From the NCBI GenBank assembly GCA_009783355.1, contig WRHH01000001.1, forward strand, positions 62,001 through 126,000: a DNA stretch of 64,000 nt, written 5' to 3'. Each line of letters opens with the position of its first letter. Position 1 is the stretch's first letter. Position numbers and translations under genes: made by a program. Source of the DNA: Synergistaceae bacterium. GTDB taxonomy: Bacteria; Synergistota; Synergistia; Synergistales; Aminobacteriaceae. Under the pieces are notes generated by a model. It saw nothing but the letters and a program-made list of their open reading frames with translations. It was not told the DNA's origin and ran no database searches. Below, in pieces: positions 379-59,422 of the stretch.

Positions 379-388
379 TACAAAAGCA

Positions 389-467
389 GTGAGGAGTGAG
401 GAGTTAGGAGTTAGGAGTTTAAAAAAAGAAAAAGCAAATTTTTGATTTTTCACTCCTCACTCCTAAC
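389..467. repeat. Opposed GGAGTGA/GGAGTTA heptamer arrays
   Basis: Just after the stop codon of the first gene lie four heptamers (GAGGAGT twice, TAGGAGT twice, 391-418), then an A-rich tail. A shorter inverted copy (ACTCCTC, ACTCCTA) is at 452-467. The two arms can partly pair across a loop of about 30 bases, so they could act as a transcription terminator. The unit length (7) and the A-rich tail match the other gene-end arrays in this window. Confidence 0.8.
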
Positions 468-507
468 TTTCTTCGCTCTTCACACTATTATTTAGGAGTG
501 AAACGTA

Positions 508-1932
508 TTGAAGAGATTACTATTTTTTACCGTGATTGCGTTGTATCTTGCCATCGCGCCATTGGTTGCGCAAGCGGTGGACAAAGCGGGCGATATGGCT
601 ATGGGCGCATGGACGGAGGATCCGCGCTATTTGACCTTTGGCAGCTGCAATGGTCATCCGTTGGTGTGGCGGGTACTGGAGGTAAAGGACAGCGATTCGG
701 ATTTCAGCGGCGTTAAAACGGCTTTCTTGCTGCTGGACGATTTACTGCGGAGCAACGTCGGCGAAATGGAAGCGTTTGAATTTGGCTCGTCAAACAGTTT
801 TCCCAACAGCAAGATTAAAAAATGGCTGAATGACGGAGAAAAAGGATTCATGGCAGGGCTTGTTGAATATCAGGCGGATATACTCGACACGACTTACAGC
901 CCCGGTAATGCTCCCCGTAAATGGTCGGGAGGCCCTGTAAGCGGTACGTCAAAAATATTTTTGTTAAGCGCGGAGGAAGCCAATAATGTAAGCTATTTTG
1001 CAAGCGACGCCGATCGCGTAGCAGATAATAAAGTATGGTGGCTGCGGTCACCGGGCTTCAAAAAAGACATTGCAGCTATTGTAATTGTTATTGGCAGCGT
1101 CGCCCAAAATGGTCTTTACGTCAGTAGCAGAAATGGAGTTCGCCCTGCTTTGAAAATAAGCCTTTCGCCTTCTTCTGTTTTTGCTGATTTGCCCGTTTCT
1201 TACGGATTAAGCGTTAAAACGGATGACGGAAGCAACCCTATTGGCGGCGCGAAAGCTATTTTGGCGCCTTCTTTAACATCGCAAAGCAAGGAGAGTTACT
1301 CAAATTCCGTTGGTATTGCGCGTTTTGCAAATGTTGCGCCAGGCGCTTATACTGTCGCTGTATCTAAACCAGGGTTCGAGACAAAGTCAGAGGACATCAT
1401 CGTTCCGGCAGCTCCTGCGGTAACTCTGACGCCTGACGCGGCTGCTCTGCCGGGCAAAGTAAAGTTCGGCAAATATAACGGAGAGCCTATAGAGTGGGAC
1501 GTACTGGACATCGTGAACAGCAAGGCGCTACTGTTAGCGGGAGCGTTGTTCGAGATGTATTTTGACAATAGCGGGAGCAGCACATGGGCGAATTCTTCGC
1601 TTCGCGCCTATATGAACAGCGCAAATGCCGGAGGTTTCCTGAATGAAACCAACTTCACCGCTGAGGAGGCCGCTGCCATAAATGTCGCTGCGTCGGCTAC
1701 GGGAGATTCCGTTTTTTTGCTTTCAAGCGAGGAAGTATTCAAATATATGCCCGATGCGGACATGCGGGCGTACAATGGTATAAAATGGCACATGCGCACT
1801 CCTTTCGACGGAGCGGATGTGGAGGCAATAAGCCCGAGCGGAGATTACTGCACAAATCCGGCGTATGAACGCGGGATATTCGCCTGGAGCCGCCCCGCCG
1901 CGTGGGTGGATTTGGAAGCAATTCGGAATTAG
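508..1932 (+). CDS. Secreted protein with two DUF6273-like domains
   Basis: The TTG start at 508 is chosen because AGGAGTG lies at 494-500 and a clean signal peptide follows (basic MKR, hydrophobic core, cut near AQA). Residues about 30-215 and 315-470 each look like the DUF6273 family: an FG-x-Y/C-x-G opening, a WxVL motif, a WLN or LRAYMN stretch, VFLLS-x-EE, and RPA near the end. Between them, about 225-305, is a carboxypeptidase-regulatory-like beta domain (AYTVAVSKPGF). The protein is exported; its activity is unknown. The last codons (ATT CGG AAT TAG) lie within a heptamer array, so the stop is repeat-derived. It converges with, and overlaps by three bases, the minus-strand gene at 1929-2225. 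Confidence 0.75.
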   Translation: MKRLLFFTVIALYLAIAPLVAQAVDKAGDMAMGAWTEDPRYLTFGSCNGHPLVWRVLEVKDSDSDFSGVKTAFLLLDDLLRSNVGEMEAFEFGSSNSFPNSKIKKWLNDGEKGFMAGLVEYQADILDTTYSPGNAPRKWSGGPVSGTSKIFLLSAEEANNVSYFASDADRVADNKVWWLRSPGFKKDIAAIVIVIGSVAQNGLYVSSRNGVRPALKISLSPSSVFADLPVSYGLSVKTDDGSNPIGGAKAILAPSLTSQSKESYSNSVGIARFANVAPGAYTVAVSKPGFETKSEDIIVPAAPAVTLTPDAAALPGKVKFGKYNGEPIEWDVLDIVNSKALLLAGALFEMYFDNSGSSTWANSSLRAYMNSANAGGFLNETNFTAEEAAAINVAASATGDSVFLLSSEEVFKYMPDADMRAYNGIKWHMRTPFDGADVEAISPSGDYCTNPAYERGIFAWSRPAAWVDLEAIRN

Positions 1933-1946
1933 GAATTCGGAATTGC
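1920..1946. repeat. AATTCGG heptamer array shared by two convergent stop codons
   Basis: Units AATTCGG, AATTAGG, AATTCGG and AATTGC follow each other without spacing. The plus-strand gene stops at TAG 1930-1932 and the minus-strand gene at TAA 1931-1929, both in the second unit. The outer edges (GCAATTC and GAATTGC) are complementary, so the array is also a near-palindrome. Confidence 0.85.
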
Positions 1947-16540: not shown

Positions 16541-16899
16541 CACATTCTGTAACTTATCTTTGTCATAAAGCAGTACCCCTTCGTTTGCGATATCATAATA
16601 AATAAGAGAGCTTCTCCTGTTTTTCAGGTACGTTCCCTCAGAACGAATGAGCGGAGAGATATACCCTGTGGTCGTTCAGTTCCTCGACTTCGGACGCTAT
16701 GCCAAGAATTCTCTCTTTGATCGTAACTTTTTCTATTCCTGTATCATCCATAGTTCTTAAGAAGAATAAAAATATCAATGTCGGAATCATCGCAGTCATC
16801 CCCTCGTGCCACGGAACCGAACAAAACCACTTGCAACAGATTATCGCCTTCCGCCAAGTGAAGGCGATGAATGAATTCCTCAATAGTCTTATGGAACAT
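16517..16899 (-). pseudogene. Broken nucleotidyltransferase (MNT-type antitoxin-like)
   Basis: Three minus-strand frames together encode one small nucleotidyltransferase: MFHKTIEEFIHRL and the catalytic GSVARGDDCDDSDIDIFIL (two Asp in D-x-D) up to a stop near 16750; then DDTGIEKVTIKERILG and NDHRVYLSAHS; then EGTYLKNRRSSLIYYDIANE to LLYDKDKL and a stop at 16517. At least two frameshifts disrupt it. In intact form this is the MNT half of HEPN-MNT toxin-antitoxin pairs; no HEPN partner remains. It overlaps the end of the ParE-like toxin gene on the other strand. Confidence 0.75.
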
Positions 16900-16913
16900 T
16901 GAACACTGCTTTT

Positions 16914-23385: not shown

Positions 23386-24192
23386 ATGATGAACACATCG
23401 GAAAAGAAAACTTACCTGATTGCTGTAATAATAGTTATTGTTGGAACCTTAGTAATTGCTGTCGGCTTTACCGTTGGATTATTATTCCTGACGGAGTCGG
23501 ACAATCGAGCGCTTACTGAGGACAGGATTGCTTTTGACATTGAAAACAAGAGCTCGGACATAAGCGGTGATATGACGATTGATAGCGATGATATGCCTAC
23601 AGATAGCAACGAATGGGAAATACCCGTCGAAATTTCGAGCATAGATGAAAGCATTTTTAAAACAGATTTAGAAATAGATTTAGAAGCTGAATTGGAAGAA
23701 GCCCCGGCATCTTTGGATGAATATAGGCAAGCAGTCAAAGCAATTGAGAATTTAAGAAAATCGCGCGCTGTTGACCGAAGAACCGGGAATAGATGGATAC
23801 TTATTGACAAAAGTAATTTCAGCCTTTGTCTTTATAACAGGAATGGAGTATTGCGCGAATGGGAAATTGCTGTTGGCTTGGGCAAGGGAAACAAGCGAAA
23901 CAAAGGCGATAATAGGACGCCCACAGGTACTTTTATGATAAGTCAAATTCAGGATTCAAGTAAATGGACGCATGACTTCGGGGATGGGAAAGGTGAAATT
24001 GAAGGAGCGTACGGTCCCTGGTTTATAAGACTTAAAACGCCGCCATGGACAGGAATAGGCATACATGGAACTCATGACCCTGATTCAATAGGCGAGCGCG
24101 TGTCTGAAGGCTGTATAAGAATGAATAACAAAGACGTATCGGAGCTTAAAAAACTGGTTAAAGTGGGCATGGCAGTTATTATTGTAGAATAG
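23386..24192 (+). CDS. L,D-transpeptidase (YkuD/ErfK family)
   Basis: A 268-residue membrane-anchored enzyme: hydrophobic segment at about 8-32, an acidic spacer to about residue 110, then the YkuD domain (about 130-268). The active-site motif is HGTHDP...SEGCIRM, with catalytic Cys in GCIRM and His in GIHGTHD. It forms 3-3 peptidoglycan cross-links or attaches proteins to the wall, outside the cytoplasmic membrane. Two adjacent ATGs (23386, 23389) are equally possible. The stop TAG (24190-24192) is the end of the first heptamer of a GGRWTAG array. Confidence 0.9.
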   Translation: MMNTSEKKTYLIAVIIVIVGTLVIAVGFTVGLLFLTESDNRALTEDRIAFDIENKSSDISGDMTIDSDDMPTDSNEWEIPVEISSIDESIFKTDLEIDLEAELEEAPASLDEYRQAVKAIENLRKSRAVDRRTGNRWILIDKSNFSLCLYNRNGVLREWEIAVGLGKGNKRNKGDNRTPTGTFMISQIQDSSKWTHDFGDGKGEIEGAYGPWFIRLKTPPWTGIGIHGTHDPDSIGERVSEGCIRMNNKDVSELKKLVKVGMAVIIVE

Positions 24193-24345
24193 GGAATAGG
24201 GATTAGGGATTAGAAAAGACAAAGGCAAAAACAACTACAAAGGCTTTAACCACGAACCAGACGAACAAAAGCATAGATTTGTTATATGCAAATCCCAAAT
24301 CCCAAATCCCTAATCCCTAATCCCTAATCCCTAATCCCTGTATCT
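24187..24345. repeat. Facing GGATTAG heptamer arrays between convergent genes
   Basis: GAATAG, GGAATAG, GGATTAG, GGATTAG (24187-24213) end the L,D-transpeptidase gene and run into AAAAGACAAAGGC. The mirror array, CTAATCC repeated (about 24297-24341), ends the acetyltransferase on the other strand. Between them is CCACGAACCAGACGAACAAAAGC (24250), a repeat also found at 34083. The arms are long enough to pair as a hairpin. Confidence 0.85.
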
Positions 24346-32783: not shown

Positions 32784-33551
32784 ATGAATAGAAAATTTTT
32801 ACGTTGTATAAAAGATGGAAAGATTGTGAGCGGGTATGTGGAAGATGAAAATGTGTTTCCAATTGATGGAGAATTCTGGGAAGATTTCAAAGTAACCGGA
32901 GAGAGTTTTCCTATGGCGGAGATTGAAAAATGGCTTCCGCCTGTTACACCATCCAAGCTTATTGCTATAGGGCTGAATTACCGCGCGCACGCAGAAGAAG
33001 CTAAACATCAGATACCGGAAACGCCGGTGAGTTTTATAAAATCCACCACGAGCATAACGTCTCATGGAGCGGACATAATATATCCGGTTGGATTGTCTAA
33101 AGCTGTCGATTATGAAGCGGAACTTGCGGTCGTTATCGGTAAACGCGCTTATAAGGTTGATGAAAAAGAAGCTCTCGACTATGTACTTGGGCTTACTTGC
33201 GCCAATGATGTTTCCGCAAGAGATATACAGAAAAGGGATGGACAATGGATGCTTGCCAAATCTTTTAATACTTTCACCCCTCTCGGACCGTGGATAGTTA
33301 GCGGAGTTTCTCCTTTAGACCTGCGCGTGACTTCAAGATTGAACGGACAAACGCGTCAGGATTCGCGCACTTCAGATATGATTTTCAGCGTTCCTCACCT
33401 TATTCATTTTCTCTCTCAAGTAATGCCTCTTTTACCCGGGGATGTCATCATAACGGGTACTCCTTCAGGGGTCGGCAGGCTGAGCGATGGGGATGTAATA
33501 GAAATTGAGATTGAAAATATTGGAGTCCTTTCAAATACGGTTAAGGGATAG
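32784..33551 (+). CDS. Fumarylacetoacetate hydrolase-family protein
   Basis: The ATG at 32784 is 8 bases from GGAG (32772-32775) and preferred to ATG 32778. The 255-residue protein has the FAH fold: IAIGLNYRAHAEEA near residue 70, metal ligands in DYEAELAVVIGK (E-x-E) and the conserved KSFNTFTPLGPW and ITGTPSGVG motifs. Members hydrolyse or decarboxylate acylpyruvates, or isomerise aromatic degradation products; the substrate here is unknown. The stop TAG is in the first unit of a seven-unit heptamer array. Confidence 0.88.
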   Translation: MNRKFLRCIKDGKIVSGYVEDENVFPIDGEFWEDFKVTGESFPMAEIEKWLPPVTPSKLIAIGLNYRAHAEEAKHQIPETPVSFIKSTTSITSHGADIIYPVGLSKAVDYEAELAVVIGKRAYKVDEKEALDYVLGLTCANDVSARDIQKRDGQWMLAKSFNTFTPLGPWIVSGVSPLDLRVTSRLNGQTRQDSRTSDMIFSVPHLIHFLSQVMPLLPGDVIITGTPSGVGRLSDGDVIEIEIENIGVLSNTVKG

Positions 33552-33672
33552 GGAATTGGGAATAGGGAATAGGGATTAGGGAATAGGGATTAGAAAAAGC
33601 AAAAGAAAAAGCAAAAGCAAAAGAAAAAGCAAAAGCAAAAGAAAAAGCAAAAGCAAAAGCAAAAGCATTTGC
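33545..33672. repeat. GGRWTAG heptamer array followed by AAAAGC hexamer array
   Basis: Seven unbroken heptamers (GGGATAG, GGAATTG, GGAATAG twice, GGATTAG, GGAATAG, GGATTAG) occupy 33545-33593 and include the FAH stop codon. They run directly into about a dozen AAAAGC or AAAAGA hexamers (33594-33668). The hexamer tract looks like an expanded form of the A-rich tail seen after the other heptamer arrays. Confidence 0.9.
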
Positions 33673-36442: not shown

Positions 36443-36470
36443 TAAACTCCACACTCCACACTCCACACGT
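36443..36470 (-). repeat. GTGTGGA heptamer array at the 3' end of the M14 peptidase gene
   Basis: On the minus strand, a few bases after the peptidase stop, GTGTGGA repeats three times and runs into GTTTAAAGACAAAAAC. Length of unit, place and A-rich tail match the other gene-end arrays although the unit sequence differs. Confidence 0.8.
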
Positions 36471-39703: not shown

Positions 39704-40085
39704 ATATCATACCTCCTTGATTTAAGGCAAATTCCAATTTTGAAATTTACCCGTCTAATATATTATTATAGTGGAACTTTGTTGCTTTTGTCCAATAAAA
39801 ATATTAAACTGCAAATATTATCTTTATTTCAATAAAAATACAAAATATAAGAAAAAGGCTATGAATTATGTATATTAGGAAAAAAACAGAAGGTGCTACT
39901 AATATGAGCGGCAAACATCCCATCGCTTCGCGCCACCCCTCCAAAAGCTTACCAACAGCTTTTGTTACAGCCCCAAATGAAAAAGTCGGCTACCCAACTA
40001 ATAGGTAGCCGACCACTCAATTCTTTCATCTTTTATCTTTGTCTTTCCTAATCCCTAATCCCTAATCCCTAATCCCTGTCTTTCC
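39704..40085. other. Intergenic region between M14 peptidase and lpxA
   Basis: It holds the peptidase ribosome site (AGGAGG near 39713), an AT-rich upstream region likely to contain its promoter, a terminator hairpin at 39985-40013 and a heptamer array at 40049-40098. A 34-codon frame at 39904-40008 runs through the terminator and has no good ribosome site, so it is not called as a gene. Confidence 0.6.
39980..40013 (-). terminator. Intrinsic terminator after lpxA
   Basis: GTCGGCTACC (39985-39994) and GGTAGCCGAC (40004-40013) form a perfect 10-bp stem. On the minus strand the stem is followed by TTTTTC, so it ends transcripts coming from the lpx genes. Confidence 0.85.
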
Positions 40086-40098
40086 CTAATCCCTGTCT
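40049..40098 (-). repeat. GGGATTA heptamer array ending lpxA
   Basis: Four CCCTAAT units in a row (minus strand GGGATTA), then a single unit after TCTTTC. On the minus strand, lpxA finishes GAC AGG GAT TAG inside the first unit, and the array is followed by GGAAAGACAAAG, close to the tails of the other arrays. Confidence 0.85.
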
Positions 40099-40886
40099 TT
40101 ATTGCCTACCCAGAATGTAATTCCGCGTTTTGAATCCTTATAAAAATTCAATACTTTAAGCACCTCCGCTGGAGTATCTTCCGCGTTTTCCAGCTTTGTG
40201 CGAAGATTCTCGAGCGAAGAAGAGAAAACTACACTTGTGTCATATAATTCCTTGTAAACCAACAATATCTTTTTACGCAGTTCTGATGAGAAATTTGCCC
40301 TTCGAAGCCCTATTACATTCGTTCCCATAAGGCGTAAGGGTTCTCCTGCTGCAAGCGTGTAATGCGGAATGTCTTTTGTCACGCGGTACATTCCTCCCAC
40401 CATACAGTAAGTTCCAATCCGCACAAATTGATGGATTCCTACCATCCCTCCAAGAACCGTGTAATCATCAATTTGCACAAAACCGGATATTCCGACTTTG
40501 TTAGCTATTGTGACATTATTCCTGATATCTGCGTTGTGCCCTACATGAACGCCTTCCATAATGAGACAGTCATTGCCTACAGATGTTACAAAGCCTTCTC
40601 CGGTGGCTCTGTTAATTGTGACATTTTCACGGAAAATATTCCTGTCTCCAATTTTTACATATGATTTTTCGCCGCTGTATCCATGGTCCTGCGGTTCTCC
40701 CCCGATGACGGCGTGGCTGTGTACTTGATTGTCAGAACCCATTTCAACATAGCTGCATACTCGGGAATAAGGTTCCAGTATAGTATTATCTCCTATACGA
40801 GCATTTTCAACTATGCAATAAGCTCCAATTTTAACTCCCTTTCCTAATTCTGCTCCAGGAGAAACTATTGCCGTAGGATGAATCAT
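40086..40886 (-). CDS. lpxA: UDP-N-acetylglucosamine acyltransferase
   Basis: A 266-residue cytoplasmic enzyme that adds the first 3-hydroxyacyl chain to UDP-GlcNAc in lipid A synthesis. The N-terminal two thirds are hexapeptide repeats of a left-handed beta helix (IHPTAIVSPGAELGKGVKIG opening); the catalytic His is in GVHVGHNADI; the C-terminal helical part includes GLRRANFS. Follows fabZ after two bases. The last residues DRD and the stop are supplied by a GGGATTAG repeat, so the C-terminus has been trimmed or extended by the array. Confidence 0.95.
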   Translation of the reverse strand: MIHPTAIVSPGAELGKGVKIGAYCIVENARIGDNTILEPYSRVCSYVEMGSDNQVHSHAVIGGEPQDHGYSGEKSYVKIGDRNIFRENVTINRATGEGFVTSVGNDCLIMEGVHVGHNADIRNNVTIANKVGISGFVQIDDYTVLGGMVGIHQFVRIGTYCMVGGMYRVTKDIPHYTLAAGEPLRLMGTNVIGLRRANFSSELRKKILLVYKELYDTSVVFSSSLENLRTKLENAEDTPAEVLKVLNFYKDSKRGITFWVGNKDRD

Positions 40887-51544: not shown

Positions 51545-53209
51545 GTGGCTACAATTGGGTATTACGAACCGGATAATTTTAAGAAACTAAATCAGACGAT
51601 GCTGCGAAGCACAATTGAAACGGCTTTTTACGGAAATAATGTTCACAGGGTTCAGGATTTAAAAGAAGCTTATTCTCTTGCAAAGGGTATTCCTGGAACG
51701 GTGGAGCTTACAGGTATGCCAGTTTATGAAGCTGAAGAACAAGGATTACCGGTAGGGGCAAATGTGCTCCTGTTCAATGACGGAGCCTTTTATGGGCGCA
51801 CGGCTGCAGCGAGGCGCATAATAGGATATCCAAATGTCGATCCCAATTATTTTGCTACGATAATCCGCGAGGCGATATATCAGACCCGGTTTAAGGATAT
51901 GCTGAAAGCTGACGCTTACATCGGGCTTGAGGAGGATTTTATGATTCGGGCGCACCTTCTTGTCCCGAAAGCTTTTGCGAATAATGTATACAGCTGGATG
52001 TTTAATTTTCAGTATATAAATGAACATTACAAGGATATGTACAACCGCTCACGCGTAATATCGGATGTCGACGGAGATATATTTCTTTTTGCGGATCCTG
52101 ACTGGACTCACCCTGATTTTCCGTTGGGGCTCGCGTTCTTTTCACCAAAGGAGAACGTCGCAGCAGTTCTCGGCCTGCGTTATTTCGGCGAGCTTAAAAA
52201 AGGCACACTTACTTTGGGCTGGGGTATAGGCGCCAGAAACGGATATGCTTCATGTCACGCGGGGCTTAAGCGTTATAATCTTAAGAATGGAAAAAAGTTT
52301 GTTATGGCTGCTTTTGGCCTTTCAGGCTCCGGAAAATCAACAATAACTCACGCTCGCCATGGCGGTAAATATGATATAACGGTTCTTCACGACGACGCAT
52401 TTGTGGTAAACGTAAAGGATAAGTACGCCATAGCGTTGGAACCCGCATATTTTGACAAGGTTCAGGATTACCCTATAGGATGTGAAGATAACAAATTTCT
52501 TGTTACTATGCAAAACTGCGGGGTTACTGTAAACGCTGAAGGAAAAAGAATTGCTGTTACGGAAGATATTCGCAATGGCAACGGGCGCGCAATGAAGTCA
52601 AAATTCTGGTCTCCCAACCGTATTGATCGTATTGATGAGGCATTAAATGCGGTATTCTGGCTGATGAGGGACCCAACGATACCTCCAGTCCTGAAGCTCA
52701 CCGGTCCCGCTCTTGCTTCGGTGATGGGCGCCACCCTTGCCACAAAGAGGACAAGCGCCGAAAGGCTAGCGCCCGGAGTGGATATTAATGCGCTCGTCTG
52801 TGAGCCGTACGCCAACCCTTTCAGAACATACCCGCTTGAGACCGACTTCAATCGTTTTAAACAGCTTTTTGAAGACGGGGTGGATTGCTATGTCCTTAAC
52901 ACCGGCGATTTTATGGGTAAAAAGATTAAACCGGAACATACGCTTGGAATACTTGAATCGATAATAGAAGGAAACGCGAAATTCGTAAAATTCGGCAGTT
53001 TTTCAGGCATGGAAACGATACCGATTCCGGATTTTAATATAAATCTTGAGGATAAGGATTATCGGGAGCAGCTTACACTAAGGTTCAAAGACCGGCTGAA
53101 TTTTGTAAAATCCCGGGATACTGAAATCGGAGGATACGATAAACTTCCCGAATGCGCTCACAATGCAATAGAGCTCGCTGTGGAAGAAATGGGAAAAAGC
53201 AGGGGTTAG
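51545..53209 (+). CDS. pckA: Phosphoenolpyruvate carboxykinase (ATP)
   Basis: A 554-residue enzyme that interconverts oxaloacetate and PEP with ATP/ADP. The kinase-1a loop GLSGSGKST is at about 258-266, followed by metal-site residues in LHDDAFVV and the DxD-like segments; the sequence is a divergent branch of the ATP-type family. In anaerobes it often runs toward oxaloacetate. AGGAGGG precedes GTG 51545. The stop TAG lies in AGGGGTTAGGG, the first unit of a GGGATTAG array. No neighbour shows a shared pathway. Confidence 0.85.
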   Translation: MATIGYYEPDNFKKLNQTMLRSTIETAFYGNNVHRVQDLKEAYSLAKGIPGTVELTGMPVYEAEEQGLPVGANVLLFNDGAFYGRTAAARRIIGYPNVDPNYFATIIREAIYQTRFKDMLKADAYIGLEEDFMIRAHLLVPKAFANNVYSWMFNFQYINEHYKDMYNRSRVISDVDGDIFLFADPDWTHPDFPLGLAFFSPKENVAAVLGLRYFGELKKGTLTLGWGIGARNGYASCHAGLKRYNLKNGKKFVMAAFGLSGSGKSTITHARHGGKYDITVLHDDAFVVNVKDKYAIALEPAYFDKVQDYPIGCEDNKFLVTMQNCGVTVNAEGKRIAVTEDIRNGNGRAMKSKFWSPNRIDRIDEALNAVFWLMRDPTIPPVLKLTGPALASVMGATLATKRTSAERLAPGVDINALVCEPYANPFRTYPLETDFNRFKQLFEDGVDCYVLNTGDFMGKKIKPEHTLGILESIIEGNAKFVKFGSFSGMETIPIPDFNINLEDKDYREQLTLRFKDRLNFVKSRDTEIGGYDKLPECAHNAIELAVEEMGKSRG

Positions 53210-53308
53210 GGAAAAACAGGGATTAGGGATTAGAAAAGGCAAAGACAGAAGCTTTTTTCTAATCCCTAATTCCTAATCCCTGATCCCTAATCCCTGATCC
53301 CTATTCCC
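53205..53308. repeat. Facing GGGATTAG heptamer arrays after pckA
   Basis: Plus-strand units GGGGTTAG, CAGGGATTAG and GGGATTAG run into AAAAGGCAAAGACAG. The mirror copies CTAATCC, CTAATTC, CTAATCC, CTGATCC and others fill 53262-53308. The pair can fold as a long hairpin and probably ends pckA transcription. Confidence 0.85.
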
Positions 53309-53320
53309 TGTTTTAGTGAG

Positions 53321-53809: not shown

Positions 53810-53817
53810 AGAGTGAG

Positions 53818-53910
53818 TATTGAGTATTGAGTATTGAGTATTGAGTATTGAGTATTGAGTATTGAGTATTGAGTATTGAGTATTGAACTCCTCACTCCTC
53901 ACTCCTCACT
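53818..53910. repeat. TATTGAG heptamer array joined to ACTCCTC array
   Basis: Nine complete TATTGAG units and a partial one (53818-53886) are followed at once by ACTCCTC repeated three times (53887-53908). It lies between the GNAT gene and the convergent ankyrin gene. Read on the minus strand the latter array is GAGGAGT, the same unit as at 391-404. Confidence 0.95.
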
Positions 53911-54961: not shown

Positions 54962-55342
54962 ATATTTATCCTACCGTTGTTTTTCGTAGCGGTTGCCACC
55001 ACCACGCTCATACGTCTTTGCGAACCGCGTCTTTTTGCGGTGAAGCAATCCAGCGTCTTTGTTTTAAAGTATTTTCCTAATCCCTATTCCCTGTTTTTAG
55101 ACGTGAATCAAATTGCTTCGCGATGAAGCCGTTCGCAAAGGTCAATCGTCGTTGCGATTGTTGCGCTTCGCTCGCAATGGCGGCGCGGTAAACAAGAACG
55201 ACCGAAGGTCGGGGAGATTGAGAGCGACCACACCACCTCAACAATTGTTTATATTGCGTTTATTATGGTTACATGCACGGCGCGATGCGGACATCGCACC
55301 CTACATTAAAATTTGTTGCGTTTGAACATTGAACACTGTCTT
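54962..55342. repeat. Gene-free stretch with palindromic and CCCTACA repeats
   Basis: CGTCTTTGCGAACCGCGTCTTTTTGCGG (55013-55040, split by GAAGCAATCCAG) is another copy of the repeat at 3829-3956. TCGCAAAGGTCAATCGTCGTTGCGATTG and neighbours (55130-55190) form a further near-palindrome. A single GGGATTA-type unit is at 55079-55091 and the AAAAGACAGTGTTCAATGTTC motif ends livF. No gene was found. Confidence 0.65.
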
Positions 55343-58959: not shown

Positions 58960-59422
58960 AATTACACCTCCTCAATACTATTATGTAACTTGGTAATTAT
59001 ACCATTGACAATGGAATAATACAGTTTTTTTCATTTAGTCGCATCAAATCGTCAGCAAGGCAAATATCCCGCCGCCGATGTTGACGCCTTTGATGCTTCA
59101 AGCATATTAAAATTCTGCTCTCTAAATCGGGTATAGTTCCAGCCCTAACTTGGTAAAATGTTTTCTATTGAAACTTATTACGCCTATATGTTTATCTTTT
59201 GCCACTACGGTATAGTATATCAATACGAGAGAGCAATGTATAACTCACAATGTTCAACGCACAATGAAAAGTAAAAGCAATTCAGGTGACATCTATATAG
59301 AAGGGCGGAAAGAAAGCATTTTTTGTTTTTTCGTATCATGGTATCAAAAAAGGGCGGTTGCCCGCCCCTACATTGTTTCATCTTATGCTTTTGTCTTTTT
59401 CATTGTGCATTGAACATTGCAC
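58960..59422. other. Gene-free stretch with coding relic, hairpins and heptamers
   Basis: The region carries the livH promoter area, a minus-strand coding relic (see next entry), CACAATG and TTCAACG heptamers (59248-59268), a GGGCGG...CCGCCC hairpin with CCCTACATTG (59353-59378) and, at 59398-59425, ATTGTGCATTGAACATTGCAC. The last is minus-strand GTGCAAT GTTCAAT GCACAAT plus AAAAAGACAAAAGC, directly after the HtrA stop. Confidence 0.6.
59122..59226 (-). pseudogene. Possible C-terminal relic of a PIN-domain toxin
   Basis: A minus-strand frame of some 35 codons encodes YYTVVAKDKHIGVISFNRKH then FTKLGLELYPI and a stop. The pattern (a strand, Asp-x-His in KDKH, NRKHFTKL, LELYP) looks like the last part of a VapC-type PIN domain, where RDKHF and the end GLELY are usual. 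There is no upstream domain, so it is a relic; similarity was judged by eye. Confidence 0.35.

Follow-up and report, generated by a model that had tools for sequence, protein, structure and literature searches.

Sense-oriented heptamer arrays with an A-rich tail form a gene-end cassette in a Synergistaceae genome

Gene ends throughout a draft Synergistaceae genome carry a cassette composed of tandem 7-nt units of fixed polarity followed by an A-rich tail, and the evidence supports this cassette as a real, genome-wide feature. The arrays lie at or just past stop codons, are absent from genes, and share one tail behind unrelated unit words. Their positions turn over between congeners, and a sister genus places arrays of other words by the same rule.

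Materials and methods

The focal genome (G000) is a draft Synergistaceae MAG of 2.1 Mb in 46 contigs, 80% complete; the window, the whole 64-kb stretch of DNA analysed here, lies in contig 1. The LpxA of this genome shares 80% identity with that of the nearest named relative found, the Synergistaceae MAG Lab288P3bin103, presumably of termite-gut origin as its sample name reads. G001 is a congener, and the sister genus, g17, includes G017, G068, G070, G076, and G079. Repeat scans cover 789 kb of the focal genome, 536 kb of G017, and 132 kb of G068. Relatives were sampled partially, and the regions of G068, G023, and G005 were picked partly around matches, which biases array density and leaves the position test unaffected.

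Gene calls came from a simple script based on hexamer scores rather than from Prodigal; stops are more certain than starts. Array statistics in the focal genome refer to 105 placed non-tail arrays, compared with random placement in spacers (200 trials). The hairpin test scored a complementary 6-nt arm within 70 nt of an array, with reversed arrays serving as the control. An Rfam search of the 64-kb window returned a single tRNA and nothing else.

Results

Thirteen gene ends in the window carry an array or a two-unit remnant (Table 1). The first-pass annotation had counted at least eleven; the ends at 1932, 53809, and 53915 lie beyond its list. The GGRWTAG module that it described at five gene ends is present at all of them, with the stop codon inside the array or at its edge. 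The repeats do encode extra residues, as it had read: the product of the GNAT acetyltransferase gene at 24324, whose Pfam GNAT match is weak, ends LDTGIRD-stop, and LpxA ends GNKDRD-stop. The other heptamers assigned to the ends of the first gene and of the M14 peptidase, HtrA, LivF, and DctM genes were recovered as well, those of LivF and DctM comprising only ~2 units. Past lpxA, the array is followed by the tail and, further downstream, by a strong ordinary GC hairpin terminator. Inverted array pairs occupy 388-468, 24187-24339, and 53191-53310.

A single GGAATTC array (1920-1944) supplies both stops of an overlapping convergent pair, TAG on the plus strand (1932) and TAA on the minus strand (1929). 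Between the convergent GNAT and ankyrin-repeat genes, two families abut at 53814-53910, with ten GAGTATT units on the plus strand and three GTGAGGA units on the minus strand.

Table 1. Heptamer arrays, tails, and partner arms in the window
Position	Strand	Feature	Evidence
388..419	+	GGAGTGA/GGAGTTA array past the gene ending at 378	TRF, sequence
420..440	+	A-rich tail separating the two arms of the 388-468 pair	sequence
450..468	-	Partner arm in inverted orientation (TCACTCC on +), ahead of the next gene; predicted hairpin with 388-419	TRF, fold MFE -33.7
1920..1944	+	GGAATTC (AATTCGG) array with the stops of both convergent genes	TRF, gene ends
16894..16913	-	Short (~2-unit) CAATGTT-type array headed by AAAAGCAG, past dctM (stop 16914)	sequence
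24187..24213	+	GGGAATA/GGGATTA array spanning the YkuD transpeptidase stop (TAG 24190-24192)	TRF, Pfam YkuD
24214..24232	+	A-rich tail AAAAGACAAAGGCAAAAAC behind the transpeptidase array	sequence
24291..24339	-	GGGATTA array, 7 units, spanning the GNAT acetyltransferase stop (24324-24326); inverted relative to 24187-24213	TRF
33544..33593	+	GGGAATA/GGGATTA array spanning the FAH-family stop (33549-33551, GGGATAG)	TRF, Pfam FAA_hydrolase
33595..33667	+	Expanded AAAAGC/AAAAGA hexamer tail, 18-nt period, 4.1 copies, 98% matches	TRF
36446..36468	-	GTGTGGA array past the M14 peptidase gene (stop 36476), then tail TTTAAAGACAAAAAC	TRF, sequence
40047..40100	-	AAAGACA-headed GGGATTA arrays spanning the lpxA stop (40086-40088)	TRF, Pfam hexapeptide LpxA-type
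53191..53233	+	GGGGTTA/GGGATTA array spanning the pckA stop (53207-53209), tail AAAAGGCAAAGACAG	TRF, Pfam PEPCK_ATP
53259..53310	-	Array in inverted orientation (CTAATCC on +), ahead of the next gene; predicted long hairpin with 53191-53233	TRF, fold MFE -31.6
53814..53886	+	GAGTATT array, 10 units, 4 nt past the GNAT gene stop	TRF, gene ends
53887..53910	-	GTGAGGA array past the ankyrin-repeat gene	TRF, Pfam, gene ends
55322..55342	-	Short CAATGTT array with AAGACAG head, ~2 units, past the livF-type ABC gene (stop 55343)	sequence
59401..59422	-	GTGCAAT/CAATGCA array past the HtrA-type protease gene (stop 59423), tail AAAAAGACAAAAGC	sequence

Across the 789 kb of the focal genome, period 7 yields 94 tandem runs with a score of at least 12; the remaining periods between 4 and 13 yield 0-17 each (period 14 being a multiple). 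Shuffled sequence yields no such run, excluding chance. Arrays span a stop codon or lie within 30 nt of one in 75 of 105 cases, where 21.7 are expected and the random maximum is 31. None of the 105 falls inside a gene, and two are near a start yet not near a stop. Convergent spacers hold 33 of the 105 arrays, though they make up only 14% of spacer bases, and six of 62 such spacers have arrays at both ends; divergent spacers hold four arrays. The distance past the stop has its mode at 3-4 nt, and in several cases the cassette sits clearly between the stop codon and a terminator.

Relative to the gene, GGGATTA arrays are sense in 28 cases and antisense in one, CAATGCA arrays split 9:0, and the smaller families keep one orientation entirely or almost entirely, the G- or purine-richer strand usually being the mRNA strand. 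The earlier claim of an invariable gene orientation thus nearly holds, with 53259-53310 running opposite. A stop-codon artefact, arising from TAG within the unit, was rejected as the full explanation: arrays lying wholly past the stop are oriented 36:2 (families with at least two members), and 23 of 50 after-stop arrays have a sense unit without a stop codon in any frame, so the polarity is not a by-product of the unit's TAG. Replication-strand bias is contradicted by convergent inverted pairs such as 24187-24339, which indicate that polarity follows transcription. The pattern that would have refuted the first-pass reading did not appear, the arrays of the focal genome being neither spread evenly nor free of orientation bias.

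The typical cassette opens with an A-rich head, frequently closed by CAG, continues with 7-nt units, in most cases two to seven of them, and finishes with an A-rich AAAGAC/AAAAGC tail. CAG stands just before or at the array start in 39 of 80 arrays, often as AAAGACAG. An A-rich tail (AAAGAC, AAAAGC, AAAGAT, etc.) occurs within 40 nt downstream of 61 of 80 near-stop arrays, compared with 37 of 220 control genes, while the opposite strand gives 6 of 80; the common tail proposed earlier therefore accompanies most arrays and not all. It is shared by unrelated families (GGGATTA, 26/28; CAATGCA, 7/9; GTGTGGA, 4/4; AATTCGG, 6/6) and can itself expand, as at 33595-33667 and C7:5403-5493. Four units are present in 17 of 39 GGGATTA arrays and in 31 of 61 arrays of G017, the other families of the focal genome peaking at three.

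Other dispersed, partly palindromic repeats often lie behind the tails in spacers of the focal genome, for example at window position 59340 and at L019:10680-10800. These repeats are GTAGGGGCGGCATTTTGCCGCCCC, GGGGCTGTAACAAAAG (10 spacers), AAAGACTTTGGGTTGYC, CTACAAGCCGCCCCTA (14 spacers), and CACGAACCACACGAAC.

Comparison with relatives revealed rapid turnover. GGGATTAGGGATTAG is present in 178 copies in the focal genome, one in G001, one in G017, and none in the 38 other relatives that were searched. The focal genome and its congener G001 do not keep arrays at the same positions, and wherever the orthologous site could be read in G001 or Lab288P3bin103 the array is missing, apart from one possible remnant. 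The cassette has taken the place of the original C-terminus, which the relative retains, at lpxA and C5:83389, explaining extra residues such as NKDRD. A CAATGCA array in G001 (L052, ~2275) separates a stop codon from a putative selenocysteine-type tRNA gene.

The exact cassette pattern found no match in the genome collection, from which the focal genome itself may be absent. The degenerate four-unit pattern (SRRTKNN)x4 matched arrays of other heptamers in many Synergistales genomes, strongly in g17. Of the 52 spacer arrays in the 536 kb of G017, 43 are close to stops (15.3 expected), mostly as GGAGTTA/GGAGGTA in sense, with 11 of 47 near-stop arrays in the opposite orientation; in the 132 kb of G068, all 12 arrays lie near stops. 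The focal genus and g17 follow one placement rule with different unit words. An empty-site comparison of G017 and G068, which have little overlapping sequence, gave one informative 7-nt length step between near-identical species.

Many G017 and G068 arrays have a complementary arm within ~10-30 nt, sometimes with a T-tract, as in GGAGTGAGGGATAATAACCTTGCTCCTAATTTTTT past secF. Such an arm lies within 70 nt of 22 of 47 arrays in G017 (control 8) and 10 of 15 in G068 (control 4), directly followed by a T-tract in 8 of 47 (control 2) and 6 of 15 (control 1), respectively, and array-to-downstream pairing has a mean z of -1.9 in G017 and -2.3 in G068. In the secF-ddl spacer, G017, G068, G079, and G070 have an array hairpin and T-tract exactly where most other g17 species, G082 and G087 among them, have an ordinary GC hairpin with its T-tract. 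At the 3' site of enolase, seven g17 species have predicted array-type hairpins, and comparison of the arms reveals that both words vary by species and still pair. At conserved sister-genus sites, predicted array hairpins, with a T-tract at secF, hence stand where ordinary intrinsic terminators stand. Past secF in G076 (L137), a (GTGAGTA)3 array lies between the stop and the otherwise conserved ordinary terminator.

In the focal genome, a complementary 6-nt arm lies within 70 nt of 11 of 80 near-stop arrays (control 7), and a T-tract past the arm occurs in 0 of 80 within 70 nt and in one within 200 nt (control 1). The median z of pairing with downstream sequence is near 0, and terminator-like sites follow 23% of genes with arrays and 23% of genes without. 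Given the few complementary arms, the lack of T-tracts, and this equal terminator frequency, the sequences of the focal genome do not support the arrays themselves acting in termination. The role in 3'-end formation implied by the first-pass annotation thus lacks support for most arrays of the focal genome, and the sequences support a putative 3'-end role at several sister-genus sites.

Discussion

We tentatively interpret the arrays as 3'-UTR heptamer microsatellites that grow in 7-nt steps and are locked in sense as 5' arms of transcript-end hairpins, mostly single-armed in the focal genome. Arrays would lengthen and shorten through slippage, one such 7-nt step being visible between near-identical species. 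The array strand may have originated as the 5' arm of a hairpin at the transcript end, or may act as one, whether for termination or for 3'-end protection, which would account for the sense polarity. Most copies in the focal genome would then be single-armed derivatives that lost the 3' arm and came to occupy many gene ends while having no terminator function themselves. Weighing against the hairpin arm are the 11/80 arms and 0 T-tracts of the focal genome and the 11/47 arrays in opposite orientation in G017. The lack of conserved positions between the focal genome and G001 also counts against it, conservation being expected of an essential element.

Somewhat unlikely, in our assessment, is that the arrays are functionless, neutral 7-nt microsatellites gathering where they do no harm, with 3' spacers tolerating repeats that promoters and coding sequence do not and with polarity stemming from transcription-linked mutation bias. 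Lineage-specific units, fast turnover, the 7-nt step change between species, and the missing link to terminators in the focal genome all fit this account, and the bacterial excess of heptameric repeats has been ascribed to polymerase slippage (PMC4692102). Neutrality alone, however, does not yield the near-perfect orientation or the 3-4 nt mode past the stop, the common tail behind unrelated units, or the array hairpins at orthologous sites across species.

An origin as a dispersed mobile cassette (REP/MITE-like), inserting at gene ends in an orientation-specific manner, perhaps through stop-codon or terminator microhomology, is unlikely. REP/BIME (REPIN) elements are intergenic, prefer 3' ends and convergent spacers, form inverted pairs, and possibly protect mRNA 3' ends; REPs are palindromes that do not occur in tandem and are linked to a Y1 transposase. 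The arrays resemble them in intergenic location, 3'-end and convergent-spacer preference, and inverted pairs, and differ from REPs in being tandem heptamers. Near-identical multi-block cassettes (AAAGACAGGGATTAGGGAAAGACAGGGATTAGGGATTAG) at several loci, the replaced C-termini at lpxA and C5:83389, and inverted pairs in G017 with conserved termini CAGGTA...TACCTG are consistent with mobility, but units differ wholly between sites while the tail stays constant, and no target duplication was seen. A REP/RAYT origin appears unlikely: Y1_Tnp occurs once in the focal genome and was not found in the array-rich G017, G068, and G079, and thus does not track array-rich genomes, although absence from these draft assemblies is not firm. 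Repeats made by a reverse transcriptase were rejected, none having been found in the focal genome, G017, G068, or G079, with the same reservation for draft genomes.

Quite improbable is a sequence-indifferent, transcription-linked process that would write or extend sense 7-nt repeats plus the constant A-rich tail at 3' ends, some of which would be recruited as terminators. It is very unlikely that, in the focal genome, the arrays serve as intrinsic terminators in their own right: the hairpin pairs at 388-468, 24187-24339, and 53191-53310 favour it, against most arrays being unpaired and T-tracts numbering 0 within 70 nt and one within 200 nt (control 1). A Rho/rut element on the antisense strand is weakened by reasoning from sequence, since the CAATGCA and CAATGTT families have no YC dinucleotides there. 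DNA uptake words are non-tandem and occur within genes as well. Pairs of them reportedly act as terminators, as Kingsford et al. are said to have found in 2007, and the present arrays likewise include short repeated words as putative terminator arms at gene ends; unlike uptake sequences, they are tandem, comprise many different words, and, in the focal genome, number 0 inside genes, and an uptake function was rejected.

Among known heptamers, the STRR repeats of Calothrix and Anabaena form several families within one genome, as do the arrays of the focal genome. These heptanucleotide repeats are mentioned by Rehm et al. 2015, who described GGGAATC in Xanthomonas and GGGGA(C/T)T in Nostoc on the sense strand, within 50 bp of the stop or spanning it, rare between divergent genes, often in inverted convergent pairs, and with a four-unit preference (PMC4692102). 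Gene-end polarity, presented in the first-pass annotation as lacking precedent, is thus already known. The arrays of the focal genome share with these repeats a period of exactly 7, intergenic location near sense-strand stops, and scarcity between divergent genes; inverted convergent pairs recur as well, and the four-unit preference is shared by its GGGATTA arrays and by the arrays of G017. Unlike the Rehm repeats, which have one G-rich unit type per genome, the focal genome combines many families, most not G4-capable, under one polarity and a common A-rich tail, and some sister-genus array hairpins appear to replace intrinsic terminators. The TAACTGA heptamers of Beggiatoaceae, Cyanobacteria, and Bacteroidetes are likewise direct repeats, dispersed, intergenic, and of patchy taxonomic distribution, but have a single sequence and lie mostly just upstream of start codons (MacGregor 2015, PMC4679880); only 2/105 arrays of the focal genome are near a start without a stop nearby. 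A literature search found no report of gene-end heptamers in Synergistota.

The Xanthomonas and Nostoc heptamers were discussed as G-quadruplexes, and the authors could not identify a function (PMC4692102). Extending that proposal to the present arrays is the least probable of the readings: allowing an RNA G4 improves the predicted fold of the lpxA stretch (-35.1 versus -27.0) and GGGATTA arrays prefer four units (17/39), but four GGG tracts occur in only 22 of 105 arrays in the focal genome and in none of 61 in G017, where position, polarity, and the four-unit peak (31/61) are unchanged. G4 formation therefore cannot be the general reason, and the arrays are Rehm-like in placement without being classed as G4 repeats.

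What is new is that many unrelated units, mostly not G4-capable, come under one polarity and tail, with turnover between congeners and a placement rule shared with a sister genus, in which array hairpins plus T-tract at secF occupy the position of other species' ordinary intrinsic terminators. Until now, gene-end heptamers were viewed as a G-quadruplex trait of two groups. Here, units that are not G4-capable have the same placement and polarity and, in the sister genus, the same peak at four units, which points away from G-quadruplexes and towards the transcript end. Sister species carrying either an ordinary terminator or an array hairpin at one site offer a chance to watch microsatellites replace terminators.
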